Positions 20,551-49,754 of a stretch of DNA of 64,000 nucleotides are shown piece after piece. This DNA is from Amycolatopsis aidingensis (GTDB taxonomy: Bacteria > Actinomycetota > Actinomycetes > Mycobacteriales > Pseudonocardiaceae), in the NCBI RefSeq assembly GCF_018885265.1, contig NZ_CP076538.1:3694001-3758000 (forward strand). Direction: 5' to 3'. Numbering within the stretch: the first letter of the stretch is position 1; each line of letters opens with the position of its first letter. The notes below the pieces were generated by a model. It made no database searches. It was not told the DNA's origin and worked only from the letters and a program-made list of their open reading frames with translations. A program made the translations under genes and the position numbers.

Positions 20551-22713
20551 TTACTGCGTTCGCGGCAGTCCGGGGTCGGTGGCTTCGAGTGCGTACAGGC
20601 GGTCATGGAGGTCGTCGGCGCGGTGGTGGCCGAGTTGGTGGTAGAGGTCCAGGGCCTCGCGCCAGCAGCGCAAGGCCCGCTCGCGGTGGCCTGTGTCGCG
20701 CAGGCAGGTGCCGAGGGTGTCCAGGGTCGCTGCGGTGATGTCCGGGCTGCGGTGGTGGTCTTCGATGTGGAGGGCTTGCTCGCACAGCGCGATCGCCTCG
20801 GGGTGGTCGCCCAGGCCGCGCCGGGCGCGAGCGATCTGGTGCAGCGCCCAGGCTTCGCCTTGCCGGTCGTGGGCCTGGCGGCGCAGGGGGAGGCTGCGTT
20901 CGGCGTGGTGCAGGGCTTGGTGGTAGTCCCCCAGCCCCGCGCACGCAGCGCTGAGGTTGCCCTCAACCACTGCCTCCAGGCGTCCGTGCTGGGCACCGGG
21001 TGCCAGGGGTAACGCCTCCAGGAAGTACTCCCGCGCCTGGGTGTAGTGCCCTTGATCCAGGCACACCCATCCGAGGTCGTTGAGCGCACAGGCCTGTAGT
21101 TCTGGGTGGTGGAGGTCGCGGGCCAGCGCCAGCCCTGCCAGGAGGGTCTCGCGCGCGTCCTGCCACCGCCCAACGGCCCCCTGTATCTCGCCCAGGTCCA
21201 GCAGGGCGTGGGTTTCGGCAGTGCGGTCCCCGCCGCGGCGGGCCGCGGCCACCGCCCGTCGCGTGAGGTCGATCCGGTCCTCCCACCGCCCCACCCGATA
21301 CAGGACCGGCCACACGGTGGTGGTGAGCAGGAGGGTGAGGGGGAGGTGGCCGTGCCGGTCGGCGTCGCGGACCGCCGCCACCAGGTTGTCCTGCTCCCAT
21401 TCCAGCCACGCCGATGCTTGTGCGGGGTCGCCGAGGTCCAGTTCCGGGTGGGTGGCGGTGTCCAGGCGCAGCGCGGGATACCAGTCGCGGTGCGCGGGGC
21501 GCAGGACCTGGTGGGCGGTTTTGGCGTGGTGGGCGTACCACTGCCACACCCGCTCCCGGACGGCCTCGCACTGGCCGGACGGGTCGTCGAGGGTGGCGCG
21601 GTGGGCGGCGTAAGCACGCAACAGGTCGTGCAACCGGTACCGGCCCCGCCCCACCGGCTCCACCAGATGCGCCTCGACCAGCACCCCCAGCACCCGCCGC
21701 ACCACAGGAAGGTCCAGGCCGGTGGCCGCGGCGACGGCTTCGAGGCAGAACTCCGGCCCCGGATGCAACCCCACCCGCCGGAACACCAACGCCTGCGTGC
21801 TGTCCAGGCGCTGGTAGGACCAGTCGAACACCGACTCCACCGCCGCCCGCTCGTCCCCGCCCCGGCTCAACATCTCCAGCCGAGACCGCTCATCCGCCAG
21901 CTCCGCCACCACCTCACCCACCGTGGTGTGCGGGGCGGCGGCGTACCCGGCCGCGATCCGCACCGCCAACGGCAACCGCCCGCAACACCGCACCAATTCC
22001 CGCACCGCGCCCGGCTCGGCCGCCGCCCGCTCCGCCCCCACGATCCCGCCCACCAACGCGACCGCCTCCGGCTCGGTCAGCAGATCCAGGGTCAACCGGG
22101 CCGCGCCCTCGGTCACCACCAACCCGGTCAAACTGTCCCGGCTGGTCACCACCACCAAACACCCCGGACTGCCAGGCAGCAACGGCCGCACCTGCCCCGC
22201 ACCGTTCGCGTTATCCAACACGACCAACACACGCCGCCCGGCCAGCAGCGACCGGAACAACCCCGCCTGCGCCTCCACCCCCACCGGGACCCGCTCACCC
22301 GGCAGCCCGAGCGCACGCAGGAACCCCTCCAGCACCTCACCCGGCGTAGCGGGATCACCCGGCCCGTAGCCGCGCAGATTCACATACAACGTGCCGCCGG
22401 GAAACCGATCCTGCACCCGATGCGCCCAGTGCACCGCCAGCGTGGTCTTCCCCATCCCCGCCGCACCATCCACCGCCGACACCACCACCGCACCCGCACC
22501 CACCTCATCGCCAGGCACCAGCGCATCCAACGCGGCCACATGCTCGGCACGACCGGTGAAATCCCGGATCGCCAACGGCAACTGCCGCGGCGGCGGCGCA
22601 GCCCCACCATGAGCTGTCCCGGTGAACGACACATGCTGGATCGACCCGGCCTGCACCACCGAACCAGCCACCCCGTCACCGGCCTCGTTACGAACGCCCG
22701 CCCCCTCCGACAC
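20551..22713 (-). CDS. NB-ARC/TPR STAND ATPase (AfsR-like, no SARP domain)
   Basis: About 720 residues from a GTG at 22713, chosen because GGGAGA lies nine bases upstream; an upstream start at 22857 would add 48 Cys/Trp-rich residues that look non-coding. The N terminus carries a Gly/Val-patterned motif (VAGSVVQAGSIQHV). Then NB-ARC: Walker A GAAGMGKT at about 83-90, Walker B RRVLVVLDN, the TSRDSLTGL sensor, GRLPLAVRIAAG, and a winged-helix MHD-like RYRLHDLLRAYA. The C-terminal half is a set of TPRs. Such STAND proteins are ATP-driven switches. No effector domain is visible, so signalling may run through the N-terminal motif. Confidence 0.85.
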   Translation of the reverse strand: MSEGAGVRNEAGDGVAGSVVQAGSIQHVSFTGTAHGGAAPPPRQLPLAIRDFTGRAEHVAALDALVPGDEVGAGAVVVSAVDGAAGMGKTTLAVHWAHRVQDRFPGGTLYVNLRGYGPGDPATPGEVLEGFLRALGLPGERVPVGVEAQAGLFRSLLAGRRVLVVLDNANGAGQVRPLLPGSPGCLVVVTSRDSLTGLVVTEGAARLTLDLLTEPEAVALVGGIVGAERAAAEPGAVRELVRCCGRLPLAVRIAAGYAAAPHTTVGEVVAELADERSRLEMLSRGGDERAAVESVFDWSYQRLDSTQALVFRRVGLHPGPEFCLEAVAAATGLDLPVVRRVLGVLVEAHLVEPVGRGRYRLHDLLRAYAAHRATLDDPSGQCEAVRERVWQWYAHHAKTAHQVLRPAHRDWYPALRLDTATHPELDLGDPAQASAWLEWEQDNLVAAVRDADRHGHLPLTLLLTTTVWPVLYRVGRWEDRIDLTRRAVAAARRGGDRTAETHALLDLGEIQGAVGRWQDARETLLAGLALARDLHHPELQACALNDLGWVCLDQGHYTQAREYFLEALPLAPGAQHGRLEAVVEGNLSAACAGLGDYHQALHHAERSLPLRRQAHDRQGEAWALHQIARARRGLGDHPEAIALCEQALHIEDHHRSPDITAATLDTLGTCLRDTGHRERALRCWREALDLYHQLGHHRADDLHDRLYALEATDPGLPRTQ

Positions 22714-22954
22714 GACACCAGTCTCCCGCCAGCCACCCCGACGGCGGCACGGGAACAACCAGAACCACCCACACGGACCACCAGCACCCAGACACACCAA
22801 CAGAGCAACCACAACCTGATCGTCGCGCCCCACAAGATCACCGACAGCGTCAAGCACTTAGCGGCATGAGAGTGCGTCGTCTGCGTGATCCAGTTCAGGT
22901 GTCCGATGCCAGCTCTGCCCGCCCCCGGTTGCCGATTGGCGAGCGGAATCGACT

Positions 22955-25995: not shown

Positions 25996-26667
25996 CTAGG
26001 AGTGGCCCTTCCAGGGGTGCCCGATGCCCGTTCGTGTCGCGCTGCTGCCGGGTGGCAGGTCGAGGACGTCGATCAAGCTGTGGTCCTCGTCGATGGCGTG
26101 GTGCAGATGCCCGGTCTTGGCGGTGCTGCTGTCCGCGTCGGAGGAGCCGATGAGCTGCCAGGTGCCGTCATCGACGTCATGCCGGACCAGCAGAATGGGC
26201 TCGCGGCGCTCGAAGACCTCGAGGGTCTGGATGCAGGTGGTTCGCAGCAGCCAGTGCCACATCCACCAGGCCCGCCGATCGCGCTGCATGATCTGGTCGG
26301 TGGCCCACCAGACGAACGGCAGATCCTCGTGGGCGCGTGCCTGGCGCGCGGTCAGGTCCGGGCCGCCCTGCGGGACGCTCTCAAACGGGTCGTCGATCAG
26401 CGAGAACGCATGCCCGTCCTCGTTCTCGAAGATGACCGCATGGAAGGTGCCGCCGCCGGGGTTACCCGCGCCGATCCCGATCGACAGGCGAGCGAGGTGC
26501 GGGTCTGCCCCAGTGGTCCAGCCGAATGCGTACGAGGCCAGCTCACCCTGCGGCCCGACAAACTCCCCGAACGCACGTCGATCCATTCCCGTCACAGCCT
26601 TCGTGGGCACCTCGACCAGCACACCCTCCAGCACCTGAACATCCACGCCCGCAAGATAGCCGATCAA
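25996..26667 (-). CDS. Hypothetical protein, 223 residues
   Basis: Starts at TTG 26667, decided by an AAGGAG ribosome binding site seven bases upstream. The sequence looks genuinely coding and rich in beta strands and Trp (FVWWATDQIMQRDRRAWWMWHWLLRTTCIQTLEVF; TWQLIGSSDADSSTAKTGHLHHAIDEDHSLIDVLDLPPG). No membrane helix or signal peptide. I do not recognise the family and no catalytic motif is apparent. It is divergent from the RHIM-motif membrane protein at 26902, with a 230-base intergenic region between them. Confidence 0.65.
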   Translation of the reverse strand: MIGYLAGVDVQVLEGVLVEVPTKAVTGMDRRAFGEFVGPQGELASYAFGWTTGADPHLARLSIGIGAGNPGGGTFHAVIFENEDGHAFSLIDDPFESVPQGGPDLTARQARAHEDLPFVWWATDQIMQRDRRAWWMWHWLLRTTCIQTLEVFERREPILLVRHDVDDGTWQLIGSSDADSSTAKTGHLHHAIDEDHSLIDVLDLPPGSSATRTGIGHPWKGHS

Positions 26668-26901: not shown

Positions 26902-27252
26902 ATGGGTAGGCTTGGTCGCCACTTCTGGTGGTTTGCCGCCGTAGCTGGCGGCGGTGTGGCGCTCTGGGGGGCGTGGCAGTTTGGCGCATTGAACTGGTTG
27001 TGGGAAGAAAACCACCCGATTCGGCCGGTGGTTGAAGCGCTGAGCTGGGTTGCCGGCCTCGCGGGTCTGATCGTCACGGCGACCGCGGTGATCATCTCAC
27101 TGCGTCAGCGGCAAGGTGACTATGAAGTCGTGAATGTGTCGCTGACGCGTCCGTCGGCTAGCACGGCTGAGAAGAATATGGCGGAAGTTCGAGATAGCCG
27201 CGGGATTCAAATTGGTGACCACAACGCCCAGACCAATCACTTCGACCGGTAA
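26902..27252 (+). CDS. Small two-helix membrane protein with C-terminal RHIM-like motif
   Basis: A 116-residue protein with two transmembrane helices (about 8-30 and 47-68), a short linker, and at residues 101-112 the motif GIQIGDHNAQTN. This matches the RIP homotypic interaction motif core (I/V-Q-I/V-G-x-x-N) known from RIPK1/RIPK3, and bacterial amyloid signalling motifs reported next to NLR genes. The adjacent ATPase, only six bases downstream, carries the near-identical GVQVGDHNTQTN at its N terminus. By analogy this protein could be a membrane-acting effector recruited by amyloid templating. That role is inference; the motif and pairing are seen directly. Confidence 0.72.
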   Translation: MGRLGRHFWWFAAVAGGGVALWGAWQFGALNWLWEENHPIRPVVEALSWVAGLAGLIVTATAVIISLRQRQGDYEVVNVSLTRPSASTAEKNMAEVRDSRGIQIGDHNAQTNHFDR

Positions 27253-27258
27253 CCAACA

Positions 27259-29838
27259 GTGTTTTCGCTAGATCGGCAGGACCGCAGCTCGAAGCCGTCA
27301 GACCCAGCACGACACGTCGAGGTCAGTCAAAGCGAAGGCGTCCAAGTCGGTGACCACAACACCCAAACCAACCTTTACTTCATAGGTAGCTGCCACGACG
27401 GCGCCGCCGTCACCTCACGTGCGTCGCACGGCGAGGCGATCAGCGACGCGGTGCTCCGGAACTATCGTCGAAACTGGATGGCGCGGCCTCCGGTCATGGC
27501 CGCGCAGCCTGAAGCATCGCTTCTGGCAGACCGGCTGACGGCGCACGATGGCCGTCCGGTTGTCGTATTGCACGGTCGTGCGGGCTCAGGCAAGAGCACG
27601 GTCGCGGCCGAGGCTGTGAAGCATCTGATCGAACTCGACTGGACTGCCGCGGTAGTGCGCATGGACGCGATCGACAATGTCTGCCGAAGCGCCGCGGCGC
27701 TGGGCAGGGCGGCCGAGTTGGGGTCGTCCCCGATTGACGCCCTGGCTTTAGCTGCACGCAATGGGCCGGCGGTTCTTGTCGTAGACCAACTCGATGCAGT
27801 GAGTACCTACAGCGGCCGCATACCCGACAGCTACGAGGCTGTCGATGAGATGGTCGCGCAGGCGGGCACGCACAAGGAGATGAAGATCGTCCTTGTGGTG
27901 CGCTCTGCCGATCTTTCGGCCGACCCGCGGATGAGGTCCCTGCTCGCCGAGGAAGGCAAGGTCGAGCAGCTCGAAGTCGGTCACCTCGACGTCGCGGCTG
28001 TGCGTGCTGCTCTCGCTGATTTCGGAGTCGAGCCGAACTCGCTGACGCCGGATACGCTCGACTTGTTGCGCGTCCCCCTGCACTTGGCCGTGTTCTTTCG
28101 CCTGGAACCAGAGTCACGTGAGCTGCCGTATCGGACGCTCCCGGACCTGTACCAACAGTTCACACACGAGATCCGTGGGCTGGTTGAGGACGACCTAGGA
28201 TCCGCCGGCTGGCACGGGGCGATCGCGCCCCTCGTTACATACATGAGCGAACACGAGACCTTGCATGCACCATCCGCACTTCTTGAGCGACTTCCTAGAC
28301 GTGCACGCCCGGCGCTGGTTTCGGCGGGGGTCGTCCGCGATGACGGCGACACCGTTCAGTTCTTCCACGAAACATACTTTGACTTCTCGTTCGCTAGAGA
28401 GTTCGTCGCGCAGGGTTTGGATCTACACGACTTCGTGTTGCACTCCGGCCAGCAACTGTTTCGGCGAGCTCAGGTACGGCAGGTCCTCGAACACCTCATC
28501 GGAGTAGATCGACGACGGTTCCGGACTGACGCGGTACGGCTCTTGACCAGCGACGCAATTCGCACGAACCTTCTTGACGTCGTGATTGGGGTGCTCAGGT
28601 CTCTGCCGGCATCGGCGGACGACTGGCTGGCGATCGAAACACTCGCGTTCGGAGGATCCCGCCGCAGTGGGCCGCTACTCGCCCTGCTGACGATGCCAGC
28701 TTGGTTCGACGCTGCTGATTCGGCCGGTCGCTGGGAGCCACTGCTTGCAGACAGCGCGACGGCTACGCCGACGGCCAACGTGCTGATCACGGCAGCCAGG
28801 GAACGCGGGGAACGAGTTGCTGAACTGGTCCAGCCGTTCATCGGCAGCTCCGACGAGTGGACGCATCGACTGCGGTCCATGGTCGAATGGTCCCTGTCAC
28901 CAGGCCTGGTCGACCTAACCGTCGACCTACTCCATCTCGGCTTGCTCGACGGAGCTCGCGGGCCGATCGCGGTCAACAGCAACTTCTGGTCGATCGTTGC
29001 CGGCCTGAAGGACGTGGACGCCGCAGGAGCAGCGCGGGTGGTGGGTGCCTACCTCCACCGAGCCAGAGACCGAGCGCAGGCCGACGGCGTCGCCAACCCG
29101 TTTCCGGAGTACATAGACTCGTCAGGAGGCGCGGGCGGTGGAACGACGATCATCGAGATCGCGACGGCGGCGCCCCGGCAGTACCTGGAGCACGTACTCC
29201 CCTTTATAATCGCGGTGTTGGATGATACCACTGCGGACGACGGCGAGGGGCTGAGGACCGGTGGCCCGTGGGCGTACCGGTTCTACGGGGCGCATGAAGT
29301 CGACGACGCAGTCCTAAACGGCGTCGATATCGCCCTGCGCGCGACCGCGCACGAACTCTGGATCGGGCCGAGAACCGTCCTCGAAGAACTGTGCAGCAGC
29401 GAGTACGAAGTCGCGCGATTCCTCGCATGCCGTACCTACGCTGTCATCGCCGACCAAGCAGCAGACGAAGCCATCGACTGGCTGGGGTCAGACGACCGAA
29501 ACCTGACGCTGGGATGGCAGGACAGCAGTGCGTGGGCATCACGGCAACTTGTCGAGGCTGCCGCACCGCATTGCGGCGACGGGCAACTCGATGCTCTGTG
29601 CATCAGATTACTTGAGTACTATCCGACTTGGGAGAGGAAGGCCGATAAGGGCAGAGCCCTGGGGTACAGCCAGTACGTACTCATGTCGGCGTTGCCCACA
29701 GCCGGCTGTCCGCCAATGCCAGACGCAGGCTCGGCGAACTTGAACGCAAATTCTCCCGCGCCGCCATCCGGCCGCCCGAGCCGCTCGAAGCCCACTTCGT
29801 TGGCTCGCCAGTGCCCGAAGAGGCGGGCGAGCACATGA
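27259..29838 (+). CDS. NLR-like P-loop ATPase with N-terminal RHIM-like motif (5' part)
   Basis: Starts at GTG 27259, six bases after the membrane protein and without its own ribosome binding site, so it is probably coupled. Residues 27-38 are GVQVGDHNTQTN. A P-loop ATPase follows: Walker A GRAGSGKST at about 107-115, Walker B AVLVVDQLDAV, an arginine-rich sensor (IVLVVRSADLSADPRM), PLHLAVFFRL and a winged-helix-like region. From about residue 400 the sequence becomes helical, HEAT/ARM-like. The frame as written stops at 29838, but coding sense leaves this frame near 29703; the true protein very likely continues into the next entry to give about 1300 residues. It is a candidate sensor/switch of the STAND class. 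Confidence 0.78.
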   Translation: MFSLDRQDRSSKPSDPARHVEVSQSEGVQVGDHNTQTNLYFIGSCHDGAAVTSRASHGEAISDAVLRNYRRNWMARPPVMAAQPEASLLADRLTAHDGRPVVVLHGRAGSGKSTVAAEAVKHLIELDWTAAVVRMDAIDNVCRSAAALGRAAELGSSPIDALALAARNGPAVLVVDQLDAVSTYSGRIPDSYEAVDEMVAQAGTHKEMKIVLVVRSADLSADPRMRSLLAEEGKVEQLEVGHLDVAAVRAALADFGVEPNSLTPDTLDLLRVPLHLAVFFRLEPESRELPYRTLPDLYQQFTHEIRGLVEDDLGSAGWHGAIAPLVTYMSEHETLHAPSALLERLPRRARPALVSAGVVRDDGDTVQFFHETYFDFSFAREFVAQGLDLHDFVLHSGQQLFRRAQVRQVLEHLIGVDRRRFRTDAVRLLTSDAIRTNLLDVVIGVLRSLPASADDWLAIETLAFGGSRRSGPLLALLTMPAWFDAADSAGRWEPLLADSATATPTANVLITAARERGERVAELVQPFIGSSDEWTHRLRSMVEWSLSPGLVDLTVDLLHLGLLDGARGPIAVNSNFWSIVAGLKDVDAAGAARVVGAYLHRARDRAQADGVANPFPEYIDSSGGAGGGTTIIEIATAAPRQYLEHVLPFIIAVLDDTTADDGEGLRTGGPWAYRFYGAHEVDDAVLNGVDIALRATAHELWIGPRTVLEELCSSEYEVARFLACRTYAVIADQAADEAIDWLGSDDRNLTLGWQDSSAWASRQLVEAAAPHCGDGQLDALCIRLLEYYPTWERKADKGRALGYSQYVLMSALPTAGCPPMPDAGSANLNANSPAPPSGRPSRSKPTSLARQCPKRRAST

Positions 29839-31166
29839 CCGACGAAGACTGGTCCCGAGCCATCACCAAGTACAGCGGGAATGAAACCCGTCCTCGTCGG
29901 AAGTTCGCGGTCGGAGGCTCGTGGCAACTTGCCGGAGTGCTCGGTCGCCGTGCCGCAGTGGAACCACAACGCTTCGCCGAACTCGCCTTGACTTTTGACG
30001 AACAGACGCTGGCTTCTAACATCATCGAAGTTGTCAATGCAGTGGTCGGAAAGATCACCGTCGCGAAGCTGACTGAACTGTGCGAGCACGCAAGGCGTAT
30101 CGCGGGAGAAGCGGCCGGCCAAGCCATATGCCGGGCCATTGCGAATTCCGCGGAGGAAGCCACGGATGCACTGATCGCCTTGCTCGAGCACTACGCGCGC
30201 GCGGCCGATCCCACGGTGGAACGCGCGAGCAGACGACCCGACGGCGAAGTCGACCTTGCAACAGAGGGGATGAACTCGACCCGAGGTGTTGCCGCTGCGG
30301 CAGTCGGTCAAATTCTCTTCGCTGACGAGACGTACGCACCTCGGCTGCTCCCGCTCGTGGCGAAGCTCGTGCAGGACCCGATCCTCTCTGTACGCGCGGA
30401 AGCCACTCGTCCGGTTTTAGCGCTATTCAACAGTCACCTGGAACAGGCACTCGATATCGCTGACGATCTGTTCACCACGAGTGCCATCGAGATTTATCAT
30501 TCGACCGCAGCCAACAGGCTGCTGACCTACGCTATTTACCGTGCAGGTGCCCGTTTCTCTCGGCACCTCAATCGCGCGCTCGAAGCGGACAGCTCCATCG
30601 CAGTGAAGGCCGGCCACATTTGGGCCAACGCGTTGCTGAACAACCTGCTACCGGACGCATGCCCCGCCGACATCACCGACCTGCCTGTGCGCGCGCGACA
30701 GGGAGCCGCGCAGACCATTGCCACAGCGCCGCACCTAGCCCCCGACGTGCTCGTCACGTTATTCGACGACGAGGACCCTGACGTTCGCAAAGCCGCCGCC
30801 GCAGTGATCCGAGTCCTCCACGAGCCTGACTCAGCCCCGATCAGTGAACGAGTCGTGGCAGCGTACACAGCCAGCCGAGCCTTCCCGGACAACTTCGGTG
30901 ACCTCTTCCGCTCACTCGAGCGAAGCCTGAGGCTGCTGCCCTCGACAACGATCATCGCCTGCGAACGCGCCGTCGAGCACGCTGGTGTTGAACTCGGTGA
31001 TCTAAGCAGGGCCAATGCTGCCGTCAGCCGTGACATCATCACGATCGTGCTCCGGCTCTACCGGCAAAGCAACGCGGCAATGCGCGACAGATGTCTCGAC
31101 GTGGTGGATCAGCTATCCGATGTCGGAGCGTACGGACTGCCGCAGGCTATCCAAGACGAGCGCTAA
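29703..31166 (+). CDS. NLR-like protein, 3' part after a frameshift (HEAT-like repeats)
   Basis: From 29703 a different frame carries the continuation: RLSANARRRLGELERKF, then TDEDWSRAITKYSG, then repeated helical pairs of HEAT type (LLPLVAKLVQDPILSVRAEATRPVLALF; VLVTLFDDEDPDVRKAAAAVIRVL). There is no start before GTG 29811, and no ribosome binding site, which supports this being the second half of the upstream gene. One additional C in the GCC-GG stretch at 29701-29705 would join the two frames. The repeats probably form the ligand-sensing superhelix. If the frameshift is real, the sensor half is lost. Confidence 0.65.
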   Translation, partial: RLSANARRRLGELERKFSRAAIRPPEPLEAHFVGSPVPEEAGEHMTDEDWSRAITKYSGNETRPRRKFAVGGSWQLAGVLGRRAAVEPQRFAELALTFDEQTLASNIIEVVNAVVGKITVAKLTELCEHARRIAGEAAGQAICRAIANSAEEATDALIALLEHYARAADPTVERASRRPDGEVDLATEGMNSTRGVAAAAVGQILFADETYAPRLLPLVAKLVQDPILSVRAEATRPVLALFNSHLEQALDIADDLFTTSAIEIYHSTAANRLLTYAIYRAGARFSRHLNRALEADSSIAVKAGHIWANALLNNLLPDACPADITDLPVRARQGAAQTIATAPHLAPDVLVTLFDDEDPDVRKAAAAVIRVLHEPDSAPISERVVAAYTASRAFPDNFGDLFRSLERSLRLLPSTTIIACERAVEHAGVELGDLSRANAAVSRDIITIVLRLYRQSNAAMRDRCLDVVDQLSDVGAYGLPQAIQDER

Positions 31167-41536: not shown

Positions 41537-41773
41537 ATGAGGCCTACCAACGGCGGGCTCTGCACCGACACCTGCATGTACGTGGACGAGCAGTCCACCT
41601 TCGAACTGGACACCTCAGGCAACGAAGTCCAGGTCACGATCGCCGGCCAACACGGCGACACCTGCTGCCTCATCCTCGCCTGGGGCGCCGTCGAACGCCT
41701 CACCCCGCTGTTCGAGCAGGCCGTCCAGCGCATCCCTCAGCAGACCTCCGCTGGCACGGTCCCAGAAACGTGA
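41537..41773 (+). CDS. Small Cys-containing hypothetical protein
   Basis: A 78-residue protein with a GGGAGG ribosome binding site six bases before the ATG, directly after the sigma factor. It has CTDTCMYVDEQS at the N terminus and HGDTCCLILAWGAVERLTPLFEQAV in the middle. The Cys pairs might bind a metal. I do not recognise the family; by position it belongs to the radical SAM/sigma operon. Confidence 0.58.
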   Translation: MRPTNGGLCTDTCMYVDEQSTFELDTSGNEVQVTIAGQHGDTCCLILAWGAVERLTPLFEQAVQRIPQQTSAGTVPET

Positions 41774-41889
41774 TCGTGATCCGGCCGCGTGGGCCCGTGC
41801 TTGCGAAGTCACCGAAGACGTACTGCGCACGTTCGACGCTCAACGAAACGACACTCATACCGTATGGTCGTAAGGTAAGGAAATTCGGC

Positions 41890-44040
41890 GTGGTCGCGGG
41901 GGGTGCGGACGTGAGCGACTCCGGGGACAGACTGGACCCCGCCGCTGAGATCACCGTCGGTGGCGGGAACGAGATATCCGGCTACGTACGGGGTTCAGCG
42001 GTCCAGGCTGGTGCAGTGCATGGTGATGTACACATCCACCATGGTGACGCGTCCAGCGTGACGCTGGTTCCCCGGCAGTTACTTCCGCCGCCTTCTCGGT
42101 TCGCCAACCGGCAACGAGAACTGTCTACATTAGACGAGTTTCTGCAAGGCCCGGACGAGATTGCGCCCACCATCGTCCTGCTGCGGGGACAGGGAGGTGT
42201 CGGAAAGACAGCCTTGGCGCTCCGCTGGCTGGATCAACTGACCGATCGGTTTCCGGACGGGCAGCTGTATGCGGACCTCGCGCTGTCGACAGGCGAGCCG
42301 ATCTCGTCCGAAGACGTGCTGGGCCAGTTTCTCCGTGCGTTGGGTGTTGCCCCGAGGCAGGTACCGACCGGGCTGGCTGAGCGCACGGCGTTGTTCCGAT
42401 CAGTGACCGCGGGCCGAGCGGTGGCGGTGCTACTGGACAACGCCGCCTCCGCCGCACAGGCCCGCGTGCTGGTGCCGGCGTCCGGCAGCGGGCTCGCCGT
42501 GGTGACGAGTCGCCGACCGCTGTTGGGGCTGCTGGCAGCCGGTGCGCACGCAGTTCAGGTTGATCCGCTGGACCCCGACGGGGCACTCGAACTGCTTTCG
42601 TATCGTGTGGGAAACCAGCGGGTGCGACGTGAACGGAACCCGGCGACAGCGTTGGTCCACCTGTGCGGCGGATTGCCGATTGCGCTGTGTGTAGCAGCGG
42701 CTCGAGTGGCGTCGCGCCCCCGACGTCCGCTCGCCCGCATGGTCGATGACCTTTCCAACGAGCGGCTGCGACTGGACCGGCTGTCGGCCGAGGAGGACCT
42801 CTCCGTGCGTTCCATGTTCGACGTCGCCTACACCGACCTCGACGTGCATGCGCGACGGGTGTACCGGACGATGGGACTTCATCCCGGTGGTCTCTTCGCC
42901 GCCGAGGTGGCGTCGGCGGCGCTCGAGATGGGCGTTGCTGACGCCCGGGATGCGTTGGACGGCTTGGTTGATGCCAGCCTCCTCGAAGAGGTGGACGACC
43001 GCCACTACCAGTTTCACGATTTGGTGCGGGTCCACGCGCAGGACCAAGCACTCCAGCACGATAGTGATCACGATCGAGCGACCGTGGTTCGGAAGATGCT
43101 GGACTGGTACCTGTTCGCGGCGAGGTCCATGAGTGAGGTCGTGATGCCGGCGCGTCGCGTGCTCGACTACGCCTTCGAGCCGTCGGCGGATACGTTCACC
43201 CTGCCGGACGACGTAGCAGGGCACGAGGCAGCCCTGGACTGGCTGGAGCGCCACCGTCTGGTCCTGATCGCTGCTACGCGAGAAGCCGCCCAACGACAGT
43301 GGGCCGAGCTTGCCTACCACTTGGCTGATGTTCTCCAGCCGTTGTTCATCCTGCACAAGCATGAGCGTCAGGCGCTCGAGGTCGGCGAGGTCGCGCTGCG
43401 GGCCGCCCGTGAATGGGGGAGTGTGCGTGCGGAGAACAGTACACAGAAACGCCTGGCCAGAGCGTACGCGCACCTCGGACGCTTCGACCAGGCCGAGCAG
43501 CATGCCGAGGAGATGCTGCACCGCACTCGCGACCGGGCTGACCGGCGAGGAGAGGCCAGTGCGCTGAAGAACCTGGCCTTCCTCCAGGCGGAGACCGGAC
43601 AGTTCGACCTTGCGGCGGCGACGTTTGATCAGACCCTGGCGATTCTGCGAGCGTTGGGAAAACGCCGGGGTGAGGCGCTGACGCTCGTGGAGTTAGGCCG
43701 GACGCTTATCCGATTGGGCGATTTTGAACGGGCCGCTGAACGGCTGCGTAGAGCGCGTGACCTGTTCGCCAGCCTGGACGTGCCGGATCGGTACAACGAC
43801 GCGCGGGCCGCGGCCTCCCTCGGAGCGGCAGAGATGTACCTGGAGCGCCACGACACCGCTCGTGCTCTCCTGCAGGGCGCAGTGACCGTACTCGCCGAGC
43901 ATGGAGCGCACCAGCAGCGTGGCCAGGTTCATCGAGCCCTGGCCGAGCTGGCCAGGCGAGTCGGTGATTCGGCCGAGGCTCGGCGGCAGGACGACATCGC
44001 CGAGGCTCTCGGAACGGCGGCCGACTCGCGCTGGCCGTAG
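41890..44040 (+). CDS. NB-ARC/TPR STAND ATPase
   Basis: About 716 residues. I choose GTG 41890 because AAGGAA lies a few bases upstream; an upstream ATG at 41770 is in frame but overlaps the preceding gene and adds unconvincing sequence. N terminus: GNEISGYVRGSAVQAGAVHG and a His tail, a Gly/Val-patterned motif like that of the 20551-22713 protein. Then NB-ARC: Walker A GQGGVGKT at 100-107, RAVAVLLDN (Walker B), TSRRPLLGLL, GGLPIALCVAAARV, and HYQFHDLVRVHAQ. The rest is TPRs. It is a probable ATP-dependent signalling switch with no DNA-binding domain. Confidence 0.85.
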   Translation: MVAGGADVSDSGDRLDPAAEITVGGGNEISGYVRGSAVQAGAVHGDVHIHHGDASSVTLVPRQLLPPPSRFANRQRELSTLDEFLQGPDEIAPTIVLLRGQGGVGKTALALRWLDQLTDRFPDGQLYADLALSTGEPISSEDVLGQFLRALGVAPRQVPTGLAERTALFRSVTAGRAVAVLLDNAASAAQARVLVPASGSGLAVVTSRRPLLGLLAAGAHAVQVDPLDPDGALELLSYRVGNQRVRRERNPATALVHLCGGLPIALCVAAARVASRPRRPLARMVDDLSNERLRLDRLSAEEDLSVRSMFDVAYTDLDVHARRVYRTMGLHPGGLFAAEVASAALEMGVADARDALDGLVDASLLEEVDDRHYQFHDLVRVHAQDQALQHDSDHDRATVVRKMLDWYLFAARSMSEVVMPARRVLDYAFEPSADTFTLPDDVAGHEAALDWLERHRLVLIAATREAAQRQWAELAYHLADVLQPLFILHKHERQALEVGEVALRAAREWGSVRAENSTQKRLARAYAHLGRFDQAEQHAEEMLHRTRDRADRRGEASALKNLAFLQAETGQFDLAAATFDQTLAILRALGKRRGEALTLVELGRTLIRLGDFERAAERLRRARDLFASLDVPDRYNDARAAASLGAAEMYLERHDTARALLQGAVTVLAEHGAHQQRGQVHRALAELARRVGDSAEARRQDDIAEALGTAADSRWP

Positions 44041-46687: not shown

Positions 46688-46754
46688 TCGGTTGTGCGAT
46701 GCGGTCACACTGCCTGTTGGGAGGGCTGTGCCATTCAGGCCGGGGAGAGTGCCC

Positions 46755-49754
46755 GTGGTGTTCCAGATTCTGGGACCGGTGCGCCTCGACGTCGGAAACG
46801 AGGCCATCGATCTTCGATCGGTCAAGCTGCGGGGCCTACTTGGGATACTGCTTCTGCACGCGAATAAGCCCGTGCACGCCGACTACATCGTGGACGGCCT
46901 GTGGGGCGGCGAATGTGTTCCGGCTGATGCGCGCAAGACCCTGCAGCCATACGTATCGAAGGTGCGTGCGGCACTGAAGAAGGCTCAGACGGGCGCGACG
47001 CTGGCCACGGAGCACGGTCACTACAGGCTTCGGACCGACCTGTTATCGGTCGACTACCACCATTTCTGTCATCTTGCCAACAAGGGGCGGGTCGCCAGTC
47101 AGCAGGCGGACAACGATACGACCGTCCACGTCCTGAGCAGGGCGGTCGAACTCTGGGCAGGACCGCCGCTGGCGGACGTGACGACGTCCTGGGCGCAACG
47201 CACCAGGGAGAAGCTGGTCCTGCGGGATCTGCATCCGGTTTATCGTCTCCTGTTCCGGACCCACCTGGCGCTCGGCCACCATGACCACGTCATTCAGGAA
47301 CTGCGCCCGCTCCTGGACGAGTACGAGACGGACGAGGCGTTCGCCGAGCTGTATCTCAGGGCGCTGGCCGGATCCGGCGACATGGGAGGCCTTACCAGCT
47401 TCTTCGGCGACTTCAGCTCTCGACTACTCGATGAGTTCGACACTCAGCCCAGCGAGTGGTTGGTGTCGCTCTACGAGCGGCTTGTGGACGAACACCGAAC
47501 GCCCGACCTCGACATGCCGATCACGCAGGTCGACCCGACGGCGCGCAGGTCGCCACCATGCCAGCTTCCGCGTGACCCCTCCTTCTTCGTTGGCAGGGAA
47601 GCTGTCCTGGAACGTCTCGACTCCCTCCTGCTCAGAGACGGGGCTCCATCCGTCGTCGCACTGGACGGGAGTCCGGGTGTGGGCAAGACGACCGTCGCCG
47701 TTCACTGGGCACGTACCCGCAGTACCCATTTCCCGGACGGACAACTGTACGCGGACCTCCACGGCTACGGGATCGACGCACCGACGAGGCCGACGACCGT
47801 CCTGGCCAACTTCCTGGAGGAGCTGGGAGTCCGCGACCGGGTTCCCGATGACGTCCACGAACGGGCCGCGTTGCTGCGCCACACCTTGAACGGACGCCGA
47901 GTTCTGGTCGTGCTGGACAATGTGCGCGACTCCGAACACGTGCGACTTCTGCTCACGGCGACGTCCTCGTGCCCGGTGCTGATCACCAGCAGACAGAAGC
48001 TCAGCACCCTCGCCTACAACGAGGGGGCCTACACCGTTCCGGTGACGGTTTTTGAACCGGACGAGTCGGTGAGCCTGCTGCGGCATCGCATGCGGGATGT
48101 GCGCGTGGCACCGGACCCGGCCGCGATACAGAACCTTGCCTCGCTGTGCGGAGGACTGCCGCTTGCGCTACAGATCGTCGGGGAACACGTGGCGGCACGC
48201 AGCAACGTCGAGGTCCAGGAACTCGTCGACCAGTTACGCGGCGAGCGCAAACGGTTGTTGGACGCCGGATCGCACGGAGACGGAGACCGTTCGACGCTCC
48301 GCGCTGTCTTCACATGGTCGTGCACGGCACTGTCGTCCGTAGCGGAGCGCCTTTTCCGGCTGCTCGGCCTGCACCCGAGTCCATACGTGAGCACACCAGC
48401 CGCCGCCGCGGTTGCCGGCCTCACCGTGGCCGAGACTGAGCGCGCACTCGAGATACTTCTTGGCGCACACCTGATCCAGCAGCAAACCAGCGACGGCTAT
48501 CGCTTACATGACTTGTTACACCTCTACGCGAGCGACCTGGTGAGTCGGGAGGACACCCAAGAACGGTATGCTGCCGTCCGGCGCGTACTCGATTGGTATC
48601 TCGGCTCCGTCGTCAGCGCTTTTCGGGTTCTCGCGCCACAGCTGGTCGACATTCCGTCGTTGCGCCTGGATCCGAACGTGACGCCTCGGTCATTCGAGAG
48701 CCCCGAGGACGCGATGAGCTGGTGCGTGCGCGAGCGGCCCCAGGTGCTGGCCGTCTGCCGAACTGCGGTCGAGTACGGCTTTCACGATCATATGTGGCGA
48801 CTCGTCGGCGCGTTCACCGAGGTACTCCGCCGGTACGGCGATCCTCGCGATCTGCTGGAGATCCACCATCGCGCGCTGGAGTCGGCGCGTATCGCCGGCG
48901 CACGAGACGGTGAGGCAGGGCAACTGAACAACCTCGGATTCGTCGAGTTCAAACTCGGCGAGTACGGCGACGCCGAAAGACACTTCCGGCAAGCGCTCGA
49001 CATCTTCCGGATGATCGACGAGGCCGCAGGCGAGGCGATAGCCCTCCACAACATCGCCAACACGTACCTCGAACGCGGCCGGTACCGAAAGGCGGTGCAG
49101 CTGTACCAGGAAAGCCTCCGGATATCCGAGGGCAACGACGACAAGCCGGGGCAGGCCCGGGTGTATCACCGTCTCGGCGACCTGTACCAACGAACGCGGC
49201 GGCTCGACCTCGCAGCACAGCACTACCGCCAGGCACTGAAACTTCGCATGAACGTCGGTTCCCCCGGGGAGCGAGCGCAGACACTGGCGCAGCTGGGCAG
49301 CCTCCTGCTCGATAAGGGCGATCCGGCAGCCGCCGTGCGGCACTGTGAGAACGCGCTCACCATCTATGACCAGACACGTGATGATCGTCAGGCCGCCGAG
49401 GCGCTCCGAACACTTGCCTCCGCGCAGCTGGCGCTCGCTGCGCATCCTGCCGCCGCCGCGGCGGCTCGACGATCTGTGGAACTGTGCCGCTCCACGGGCA
49501 ATCTCCCCGGCGTGGCCCGAGCGCTCGATGCTCTCGCCGAGGCATGTCTGGCGATGGGGGACAGCGCGACAGCGCGCGCGAAATGGAATGAGGCGCTAGA
49601 GATATCGGGTGAGACCGGCGTTACGATCGCAGGCTCGATACGCGACAAACTTGCGCTGCTGGAAGCCGGAGATGATGTCATCCCGGACGACCGAACCATT
49701 CCATTGTTTCGGCAAGAAATTGGGAGTTCGCGCCCGGCGGCGACCAACTGGTAG
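46755..49754 (+). CDS. AfsR/SARP-type regulator (BTAD, NB-ARC, TPR)
   Basis: About 999 residues from GTG 46755, six bases after GGGGAGA (GTG 46758 also possible). Order: winged-helix DNA-binding domain (about 1-90, FQILGPVRLDVGNEAIDLRSVKLRGLLGILLL), BTAD (about 95-250), NB-ARC with Walker A GSPGVGKT at about 304-311 and RRVLVVLDNV, TSRQKLSTL, GGLPLALQIVGEH, RLHDLLHLYASDL, then seven or more TPRs (LNNLGFVEFKLGEYGDAERHFRQAL and similar). This is the full AfsR-like layout, a transcriptional activator gated by ATP. Divergent from the GT-B/PfkB operon, which it may regulate. Confidence 0.9.
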   Translation: MVFQILGPVRLDVGNEAIDLRSVKLRGLLGILLLHANKPVHADYIVDGLWGGECVPADARKTLQPYVSKVRAALKKAQTGATLATEHGHYRLRTDLLSVDYHHFCHLANKGRVASQQADNDTTVHVLSRAVELWAGPPLADVTTSWAQRTREKLVLRDLHPVYRLLFRTHLALGHHDHVIQELRPLLDEYETDEAFAELYLRALAGSGDMGGLTSFFGDFSSRLLDEFDTQPSEWLVSLYERLVDEHRTPDLDMPITQVDPTARRSPPCQLPRDPSFFVGREAVLERLDSLLLRDGAPSVVALDGSPGVGKTTVAVHWARTRSTHFPDGQLYADLHGYGIDAPTRPTTVLANFLEELGVRDRVPDDVHERAALLRHTLNGRRVLVVLDNVRDSEHVRLLLTATSSCPVLITSRQKLSTLAYNEGAYTVPVTVFEPDESVSLLRHRMRDVRVAPDPAAIQNLASLCGGLPLALQIVGEHVAARSNVEVQELVDQLRGERKRLLDAGSHGDGDRSTLRAVFTWSCTALSSVAERLFRLLGLHPSPYVSTPAAAAVAGLTVAETERALEILLGAHLIQQQTSDGYRLHDLLHLYASDLVSREDTQERYAAVRRVLDWYLGSVVSAFRVLAPQLVDIPSLRLDPNVTPRSFESPEDAMSWCVRERPQVLAVCRTAVEYGFHDHMWRLVGAFTEVLRRYGDPRDLLEIHHRALESARIAGARDGEAGQLNNLGFVEFKLGEYGDAERHFRQALDIFRMIDEAAGEAIALHNIANTYLERGRYRKAVQLYQESLRISEGNDDKPGQARVYHRLGDLYQRTRRLDLAAQHYRQALKLRMNVGSPGERAQTLAQLGSLLLDKGDPAAAVRHCENALTIYDQTRDDRQAAEALRTLASAQLALAAHPAAAAAARRSVELCRSTGNLPGVARALDALAEACLAMGDSATARAKWNEALEISGETGVTIAGSIRDKLALLEAGDDVIPDDRTIPLFRQEIGSSRPAATNW

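Follow-up and report, generated by a model that had tools for sequence, protein, structure and literature searches.

A candidate BASS3 amyloid-signalling module pairing a two-helix membrane protein with a frame-split STAND-HEAT sensor in Amycolatopsis aidingensis

A small membrane-protein gene and a split sensor gene

The window, the 64,000-nt stretch of the A. aidingensis genome that was analysed (contig NZ_CP076538.1, positions 3,694,001–3,758,000), contains an effector gene of 116 codons at 26902–27252 (+), preceded by GGGAGG 5′ of its ATG. After a spacing of 6 nt, it is followed by the first ORF of a sensor gene at 27259–29838 (+), which starts with GTG; the order of effector and then sensor is as the first-pass annotation had described it. 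The effector ORF encodes two predicted helices, a variable linker and a C-terminal BASS3 tag. The nearest named relatives of both the effector and the sensor are from Amycolatopsis, and comparison of the effector with its relative in family genome G147 gives a dN of 0.215 and a dS of 0.830. No PADLOC family matches the window effector at E values up to 1. The divergent upstream neighbour, at 25996–26667 (−), has a sub-threshold Imm33-like match.

A hydropathy scan of 13 effectors (19-residue window, cut-offs of 1.6 and 1.3) indicates that the second helix, at about residues 44–66, is clearly of the membrane type, being called in 13/13 effectors at 1.6. The first helix, at about residues 8–29, is tryptophan-rich and weakly hydrophobic, and is called in none of the 13 at 1.6 and in six at 1.3; in the relatives L063 and L064 both helices are called at 1.6. 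The small upstream gene thus encodes a membrane protein, as initially proposed, while the proposal of two membrane helices holds firmly for the second helix and weakly for the first. The AlphaFold2 model, of low confidence (mean pLDDT 60.2), has helices at residues 3–35 and 41–80 and an unstructured tag (pLDDT <50), and is compatible, if weakly, with a protein of two helices and an unstructured tag. According to the positive-inside rule, arginine-flanked ends of membrane proteins tend to face the cytosol, so the arginine-flanked tag end of the effector should be cytosolic.

The first sensor ORF comprises a BASS3 tag, a STAND NTPase and a region after the NTPase, and the second, at 29811–31166 (+), encodes the C-terminal HEAT-repeat part. 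The sequence contains a Walker A motif (GRAGSGKST) and VLVVDQLDA. The Pfam matches lie below curated cut-offs: AAA_16 (E 2.8e-6, 28.4 bits, cut-off 32.6) and nSTAND1 (E 4.9e-6, 26.9 bits, cut-off 27.1) in the first ORF, and HEAT_2 (E 1.6e-5, 25.5 bits, cut-off 27.7) in the second. The relative P0022 passes for both nSTAND1 (29.7 versus 27.1 bits) and HEAT (23.6 versus 23.5 bits). The sensor therefore has the makeup of a STAND/NLR-like NTPase, a P-loop NTPase with C-terminal repeats, and its annotation as an NLR-like ATPase is supported by the P-loop residues, the sub-cut-off matches and the nSTAND1 match of P0022.

The sensor is interrupted by a change of frame. Specifically, the first ORF is 78% identical to the intact 1301-aa relative P0015 from residue 1 to about residue 814, past which it is out of frame with its relatives, while the second is 81% identical to P0015 residues 851–1301. 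The profile of the sensor family, of 1302 positions, matches at 9–816 in one frame and at 807–1302 in another, indicating a frame change near 29,690–29,720, in the stretch 29688–29718 (+). Both parts of the large ATPase with HEAT-like repeats that had been annotated are thus present, but they lie in two ORFs in different frames, with the HEAT repeats in the second. Programmed frameshifting is not favoured as the cause of the two ORFs: the longest homopolymer in 29640–29860 is GGGG, and the intact relatives L066 and L063 have a single frame.

Because the sensor is split, the window copy may be inactive. The chance that the module is dead here, the split sensor being a pseudogene and the intact effector a leftover, falls a little short of even, and this reading concerns the window copy and not the kind of system. 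It agrees with the occurrence of the frame change in a region (29640–29860) with no homopolymer of at least 5, and with decay of the sensor among relatives. G150 and G122 have isolated internal pieces, G147 has one besides its main copy (a piece in G101, cut off by a contig end, was left out of this count), and in L064, from Actinophytocola oryzae (G042), the sensor is truncated to 187 aa beside an intact effector. Set against this, the two halves are otherwise open and look to be under purifying selection by comparison with G147 (dN 0.135 and dS 0.686 for the first half; dN 0.133 and dS 0.548 for the second), which argues that the split is either recent or a sequencing error. The window module may thus be silent owing to the split, or the split may be an error of the sequence itself.

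A BASS3 tag common to both proteins

The effector ends in EVRDSRGIQIGDHNAQTNHFDR, which contains the tag GIQIGDHNAQTN (27202–27237, +; longer stretch, GIQIGDHNAQTNHFDR), and the sensor has the tag GVQVGDHNTQTN (27337–27372, +) at residues 27–38, within the N-terminal stretch VSQSEGVQVGDHNTQTNLYF and ahead of the P-loop. The translations of the ORFs therefore place the two near-identical motifs at the effector C terminus and in the sensor N-terminal region, as first noticed. Both contain the BASS3 consensus GVQ(V/I)GDxNxQxN, and by its sequence the tag is of a known kind, BASS3, a RHIM-like bacterial amyloid signalling motif.

BASS3 is described as RHIM-like and as common to the C terminus of an effector and the N terminus of an NLR encoded by adjacent genes in filamentous bacteria (PMC7889193); the pairs were reported by Dyrka et al. 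(2020, J Mol Biol, as cited in PMC7889193, PMC8086366 and PMC9815663). The assumption that an effector/NLR pair sharing an amyloid motif is a reported bacterial arrangement is thus borne out by a published BASS3 pair (PMC7889193). A BASS3 peptide of Frankia, VDLRDAKGVQVGDGNVQINRF, gave signs of amyloid by FTIR and Congo red and aggregated in an amyloid-like manner (PMC8086366), and foci are formed by GFP fused to the BASS3 of Streptomyces atratus but not by its Q-to-P mutants (PMC9815663). In addition, the mammalian RHIM is reported to cross-seed with fungal PP and with BASS3 (PMC7889193), the cross-seeding between PP and RHIM being partial (PMC7885112).

The window tag agrees with the Frankia peptide in the core, GVQVGD.N.Q.N, and in the lead-in. 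Residues G101, Q103, G105, D106, Q110 and N112 are invariant in 13/13 effectors (that of the window and 12 relatives, with 67 candidates scored), and N108 is replaced by G or S in P0005 and P0010. Over 16 effector rows, the mean column identity is 0.894 in the tag (100–112), 0.885 in the core of the membrane half (30–55) and 0.523 in the linker (67–93).

The RHIM core is V/I-Q-V/I-G with a downstream N. The Pfam RHIM profile (PF12721, cut-off 20 bits) scores the window effector at 15.4 bits (E 0.013); of 16 such effectors, nine give a match at E ≤ 0.1 and none reaches the cut-off, the best being P0013 with 19.9 bits. The match to the RHIM of RIPK1 and RIPK3 that had been claimed thus stands for the RHIM-like core, but not at the level of the Pfam profile, below whose cut-off all 16 effectors fall. 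Among helical BASS3 effectors, a type considered below, eight of 13 match and at least one, L068, passes (22.6 versus 20 bits). This effector (L068:2798–3187; tag GVQVGDHNSMTLNF) is a bacterial protein that passes Pfam's own RHIM threshold.

The tag could instead be an ordinary homotypic docking peptide that forms no fibrils, with the sensor activating the membrane protein or anchoring on it. Such an arrangement has a precedent in the EAD principle, in which one copy resides on a core component and one on the effector encoded by the next gene (Kaur et al. 2020, 2021; PMC7159879, PMC8195603), and eight of the 16 effectors weakly match EAD10 (Pfam PF19954) at E up to 0.1, at positions within 26–64 of the 77 of the profile. 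The best of these matches (E 0.0045) reaches 17.4 bits, and none of the 16 effectors reaches the cut-off of 24.1 bits. We consider simple docking unlikely, since the tag agrees in core and lead-in with a BASS3 peptide that was experimentally amyloid (PMC8086366), and since what is conserved in the tag is limited to a short run of G/Q/N residues, which the low-confidence model leaves unstructured.

Joint conservation, one sensor chassis and two membrane effectors

The effector profile matches 65 of 390 genomes of the family at E ≤ 0.001 (11 candidates scored per genome), and the match spans both the membrane half and the tag in four of the 390: the window genome (G000), G147, G107 and G042. All four have a BASS3-bearing sensor 6 nt downstream, with the C-terminal tag of the effector and the N-terminal tag of the sensor in adjacent genes. 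Absence of co-conservation of the two motifs had been named at the outset as an observation that would speak against the pairing, and they are co-conserved in 4/4 genomes with a spanning match. In the window genome (7.66 Mb, one contig) no BASS3 pair besides this one was found, either with the two-helix effector profile (11 candidates scored out of 121) or with the helical BASS3 effector profile (E up to 1, 150 candidates scored out of 187), scans that were not exhaustive.

The sensor profile, at E 1e-50, identifies 16 of the 390 family genomes, which we classed by N terminus and upstream gene. Three are of the BASS3 type (G000, split; G107; G147), one carries a different matched tag (G233, identical in sequence to Lentzea L032), four have short N termini with no partner seen (G070, G071, G076, G017), five have a nuclease-like part in cis at the N terminus (G235, G232, G196, G120, G007), and three are represented by pieces (internal in G150 and G122, at a contig end in G101). 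G042 falls outside the 16 because its sensor is truncated, and the other 13 of the 16 lack a spanning effector match (11 candidates scored per genome). Among the sensors with short tag-like N termini, no tag partner was found for L033, L036, L040 and L089 in the flanks examined (96 bases downstream for L036; about 1.4 kb on each side for L089), nor was a partner seen for P0021, a BASS3 sensor from Nocardia. Order-wide (397 genomes, partly overlapping the family set; E 1e-100), six sensor matches outside the family (L107–L112, 1463–1506 aa) have no BASS3 in the N-terminal 130 residues examined. In a class-wide sample of 394 genomes (11 candidates scored in each, E 1e-4), no match from outside the family contained the membrane half, and three comprised the tag only.

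The sensor core is combined with varied N termini. We took the best 120 of 388 sensor relatives and sorted the 119 besides that of the window by N-terminal regular expression, which gave 91 nuclease-like, seven BASS3, two NVQVGG, two TIR/SEFIR, eight other short and four other long forms, and five without a recognised P-loop. The label nuclease-like is a reading by eye of GGxADK...EQVK, and a Pfam scan of the examples P0030, P0080 and P0103 lists no nuclease family there. The N terminus of P0028 is a SEFIR domain (E 7.5e-13 in Pfam; bSEFIR, E 1.4e-33 in PADLOC). The PADLOC candidate family PDC-M54A is matched by P0015, P0024, P0028, P0080 and P0103 (best E 1.9e-12) and, at E 0.00043, by the first sensor ORF of the window. 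PDB entry 9n00, an AAA family ATPase of 1523 aa, matches positions 61–628 of the family profile (E 6.6e-27), from the nuclease-like part, within the N-terminal ~270 aa of sensor relatives, into the NTPase part, so that a solved structure of a relative with its effector in cis seems to exist.

A tree of 47 sensor cores (those of the window, of 11 loci and of 35 relatives selected by type from the 119, with some near-copies and one very long branch) groups the nine BASS3 sensors together with an SH-aLRT of 100. This group lies inside a set of 22 that includes SEFIR, NVQVGG and other short forms (SH-aLRT 99). The five N-terminal labels need six changes on the tree, of which BASS3 needs one, and the tree is most simply read as showing that this sensor family gained BASS3 once.

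Many of the tag-only matches to the effector profile are helical proteins of ~130 aa with one hydrophobic N-terminal stretch, encoded beside other STAND sensors. We aligned 13 of them and compared the two effector types by hhalign, in which only the last 35 residues, the tag, align (probability 99.0, E 5.3e-18); with the tag removed, the membrane half of our type and the 13 helical BASS3 effectors align with a probability of 0.4%, both profiles being shallow (Neff 2–3). The tag and its GKYxVxxRD lead-in therefore occur on two unrelated membrane proteins. From published descriptions, the helical proteins are probably Bell effectors; the membrane half of the window effector does not resemble this Bell-type domain, the usual BASS3 partner (hhalign 0.4%). 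BASS motifs have also been reported on CHAT and TIR proteins (PMC7889193), so that an effector other than Bell is not disqualifying.

We fetched 38 stretches, mostly around tag-only matches. A strict regular expression finds a tagged effector beside a tagged sensor in 13 of them (L046, L047, L049, L051–L055, L061, L063, L066, L067 and L069), and reading of the sequences adds L064 and L065, giving tagged pairs in 15 of the 38 and, as judged in this way, one tag or none in the other 23. At L067:2147–3100, upstream of a tagged NTPase gene, the BASS3 tag sits at the end of a 317-aa protein that by eye is nucleoside phosphorylase-like and is possibly an enzymatic BASS3 effector.

The membrane half also occurs with other C-terminal parts. 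Next to NB-ARC-type genes it carries glycine-rich C termini (xGxVTGGSGSGxTxG and similar), with a possible second tag, GxVTGGSGSGxTxG, convincing by eye, at nine loci (L007–L011, L013–L015 and L022) that were seen with 1.5-kb flanks and uncertain sensor starts; because the own-pair scores of the five tested (24–51) are not separated from cross-pair scores, we treat this tag as a lead only. Elsewhere (L026, L018, L021, L017 and L020), by eye, the membrane half is part of a cis fusion with a NACHT-like ORF, with a ricin-type repeat region or with other C-terminal parts. These fusions, in particular those of L026, L018 and L021, could mean that the membrane protein anchors the sensor and sets its location, the sensor itself giving the output. 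Against such a role, untagged sensor relatives carry an effector-type domain in cis (nuclease-like by eye, SEFIR or TIR by Pfam), a pattern suggesting that the membrane protein stands in for this domain, and no effector-type catalytic domain was found in the BASS3 sensors scanned (window, P0015, P0021 and L063). We accordingly regard an anchoring role as improbable, more so than docking, and favour the membrane protein as an effector.

To relate tags to partners we cross-scored 17 effector/sensor pairs, eight with BASS3 and nine others. All 64 combinations of the eight BASS3 effectors with the eight BASS3 sensors score 47–96, indicating that, at this level, BASS3 pairs are unspecific for their own partner. 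The BASS3 effectors score 18–35 with the nine other sensors, and the nine other effectors score 18–51 with the BASS3 sensors, one combination (L030 effector with L047 sensor, 51) lying inside the BASS3 range. In Lentzea atacamensis, the sensor tag STISGPNVQVGG matches the C terminus STIMGPNIQVGG of an overlapping upstream two-helix protein, which differs from the window effector; this pair scores 71, versus 20–38 for the same effector with the 16 other sensors compared. On these sequences, the tags of sensor and effector have switched in a coordinated manner in Lentzea.

In the window itself, two NB-ARC/TPR proteins at 20551–22857 (−) and 41770–44040 (+) have other N-terminal tag-like stretches (GSVVQAGSIQHVSF and GSAVQAGAVHGDVHI), and by eye no matching tag was found in the small ORFs examined beside them. 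A BTAD–NB-ARC–TPR protein of 1020 aa is encoded at 46692–49754 (+).

The motif common to the two proteins of the window, as claimed from the outset, is supported by local alignment of the last 46 effector residues with the first 100 sensor residues, which scores 74. The highest score among 20,000 shuffled versions of the effector stretch is 57, which rules out chance similarity of the tags. The 12-residue tags differ at three residues and at three further, synonymous codons, arguing against a very recent duplication of DNA. Thus, although chance can produce similar short peptides rich in glycine and asparagine, and although the unrelated combination of L030 and L047 scores 51, a chance match or an artefact of recent duplication is so improbable, given the shuffles, the six differing codons of 12 and the retention of the tag in 13/13 effectors and in nine sensors that group together, that it can be set aside.

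Proposed mechanism and relation to known systems

Adjacent genes, matched tags, their joint conservation and varied tag and effector types on one sensor chassis were observed here. Our preferred reading, to which we give a probability of about 60%, is that the two genes form an amyloid-signalling NLR module of the BASS3 kind, where tag amyloid seeded by the sensor clusters a membrane effector, most plausibly for abortive phage defence. In intact relatives, the STAND sensor would recognise a trigger and then oligomerise, and the oligomer would gather the N-terminal BASS3 tags into a cross-beta seed. The seed would template the matching tag at the C-terminal, cytosolic end of the small effector, and the templated tags would cluster the effector helices in the membrane, leading to membrane damage or a growth stop. 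We infer amyloid assembly, templating in this pair, the trigger, membrane damage and cell death, as well as the defence role, of which abortive phage defence would be the most plausible form and which draws on the SEFIR-bearing sensor relative and on analogy.

More tentatively, and at somewhat less than even odds, BASS3 may serve as a transferable wiring code. The cassette, together with its lead-in, would have been shuffled onto unrelated membrane effectors (helical Bell-like and two-helix) and onto unrelated STAND sensors. A sensor chassis whose relatives carry their effector in cis (SEFIR/TIR, nuclease-like) would thereby have become a membrane-targeting system of two proteins, apparently through one event, and the two partners would need to bear a common tag. 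The two-helix chassis would represent its own class of amyloid-licensed membrane effector, combined with several tags. This family offers a natural experiment on the specificity of amyloid signalling, since one sensor chassis occurs with two or more matched tag types and with alternatives in cis. The occurrence of the same tag on two unrelated membrane effectors bears on how RHIM-like bacterial signalling may act through different membrane domains, and tag swaps between intact relatives could show whether the tag alone sets the signalling partner.

The BASS3 kind is known, and the two-helix effector type on a STAND-HEAT sensor may be new; we found no description of this combination in excerpts of the open-access literature, which does not extend to Dyrka et al. 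(2020). The module resembles published BASS3 pairs in its tag, in the placement of the tag at the effector C terminus and the sensor N terminus, in its adjacent genes and in its filamentous actinobacterial host. It differs in that the window effector has no profile similarity beyond the tag to helical BASS3 effectors, and in that its sensor is nSTAND1-like with HEAT repeats, whereas the other six of eight compared sensors look NB-ARC-like or otherwise different (by eye, over the first 260 residues). With the RHIM of RIPK1 and RIPK3 and with fungal PP it has in common the core V/I-Q-V/I-G with its downstream N; unlike in RIPK1 and RIPK3, the window tag is terminal rather than central and is accompanied by no kinase. 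EAD10 systems likewise place one copy on a core component and another on the effector of the next gene, but effectors of the window type score below the EAD10 cut-off and cover part of the profile. Finally, bSEFIR/TIR-STAND proteins and candidate PDC-M54A belong to the same sensor family, with P0028 having a bSEFIR-like N terminus on the STAND core; P0028 carries its effector in cis, whereas the window sensor, as we propose, would signal in trans through its tag.
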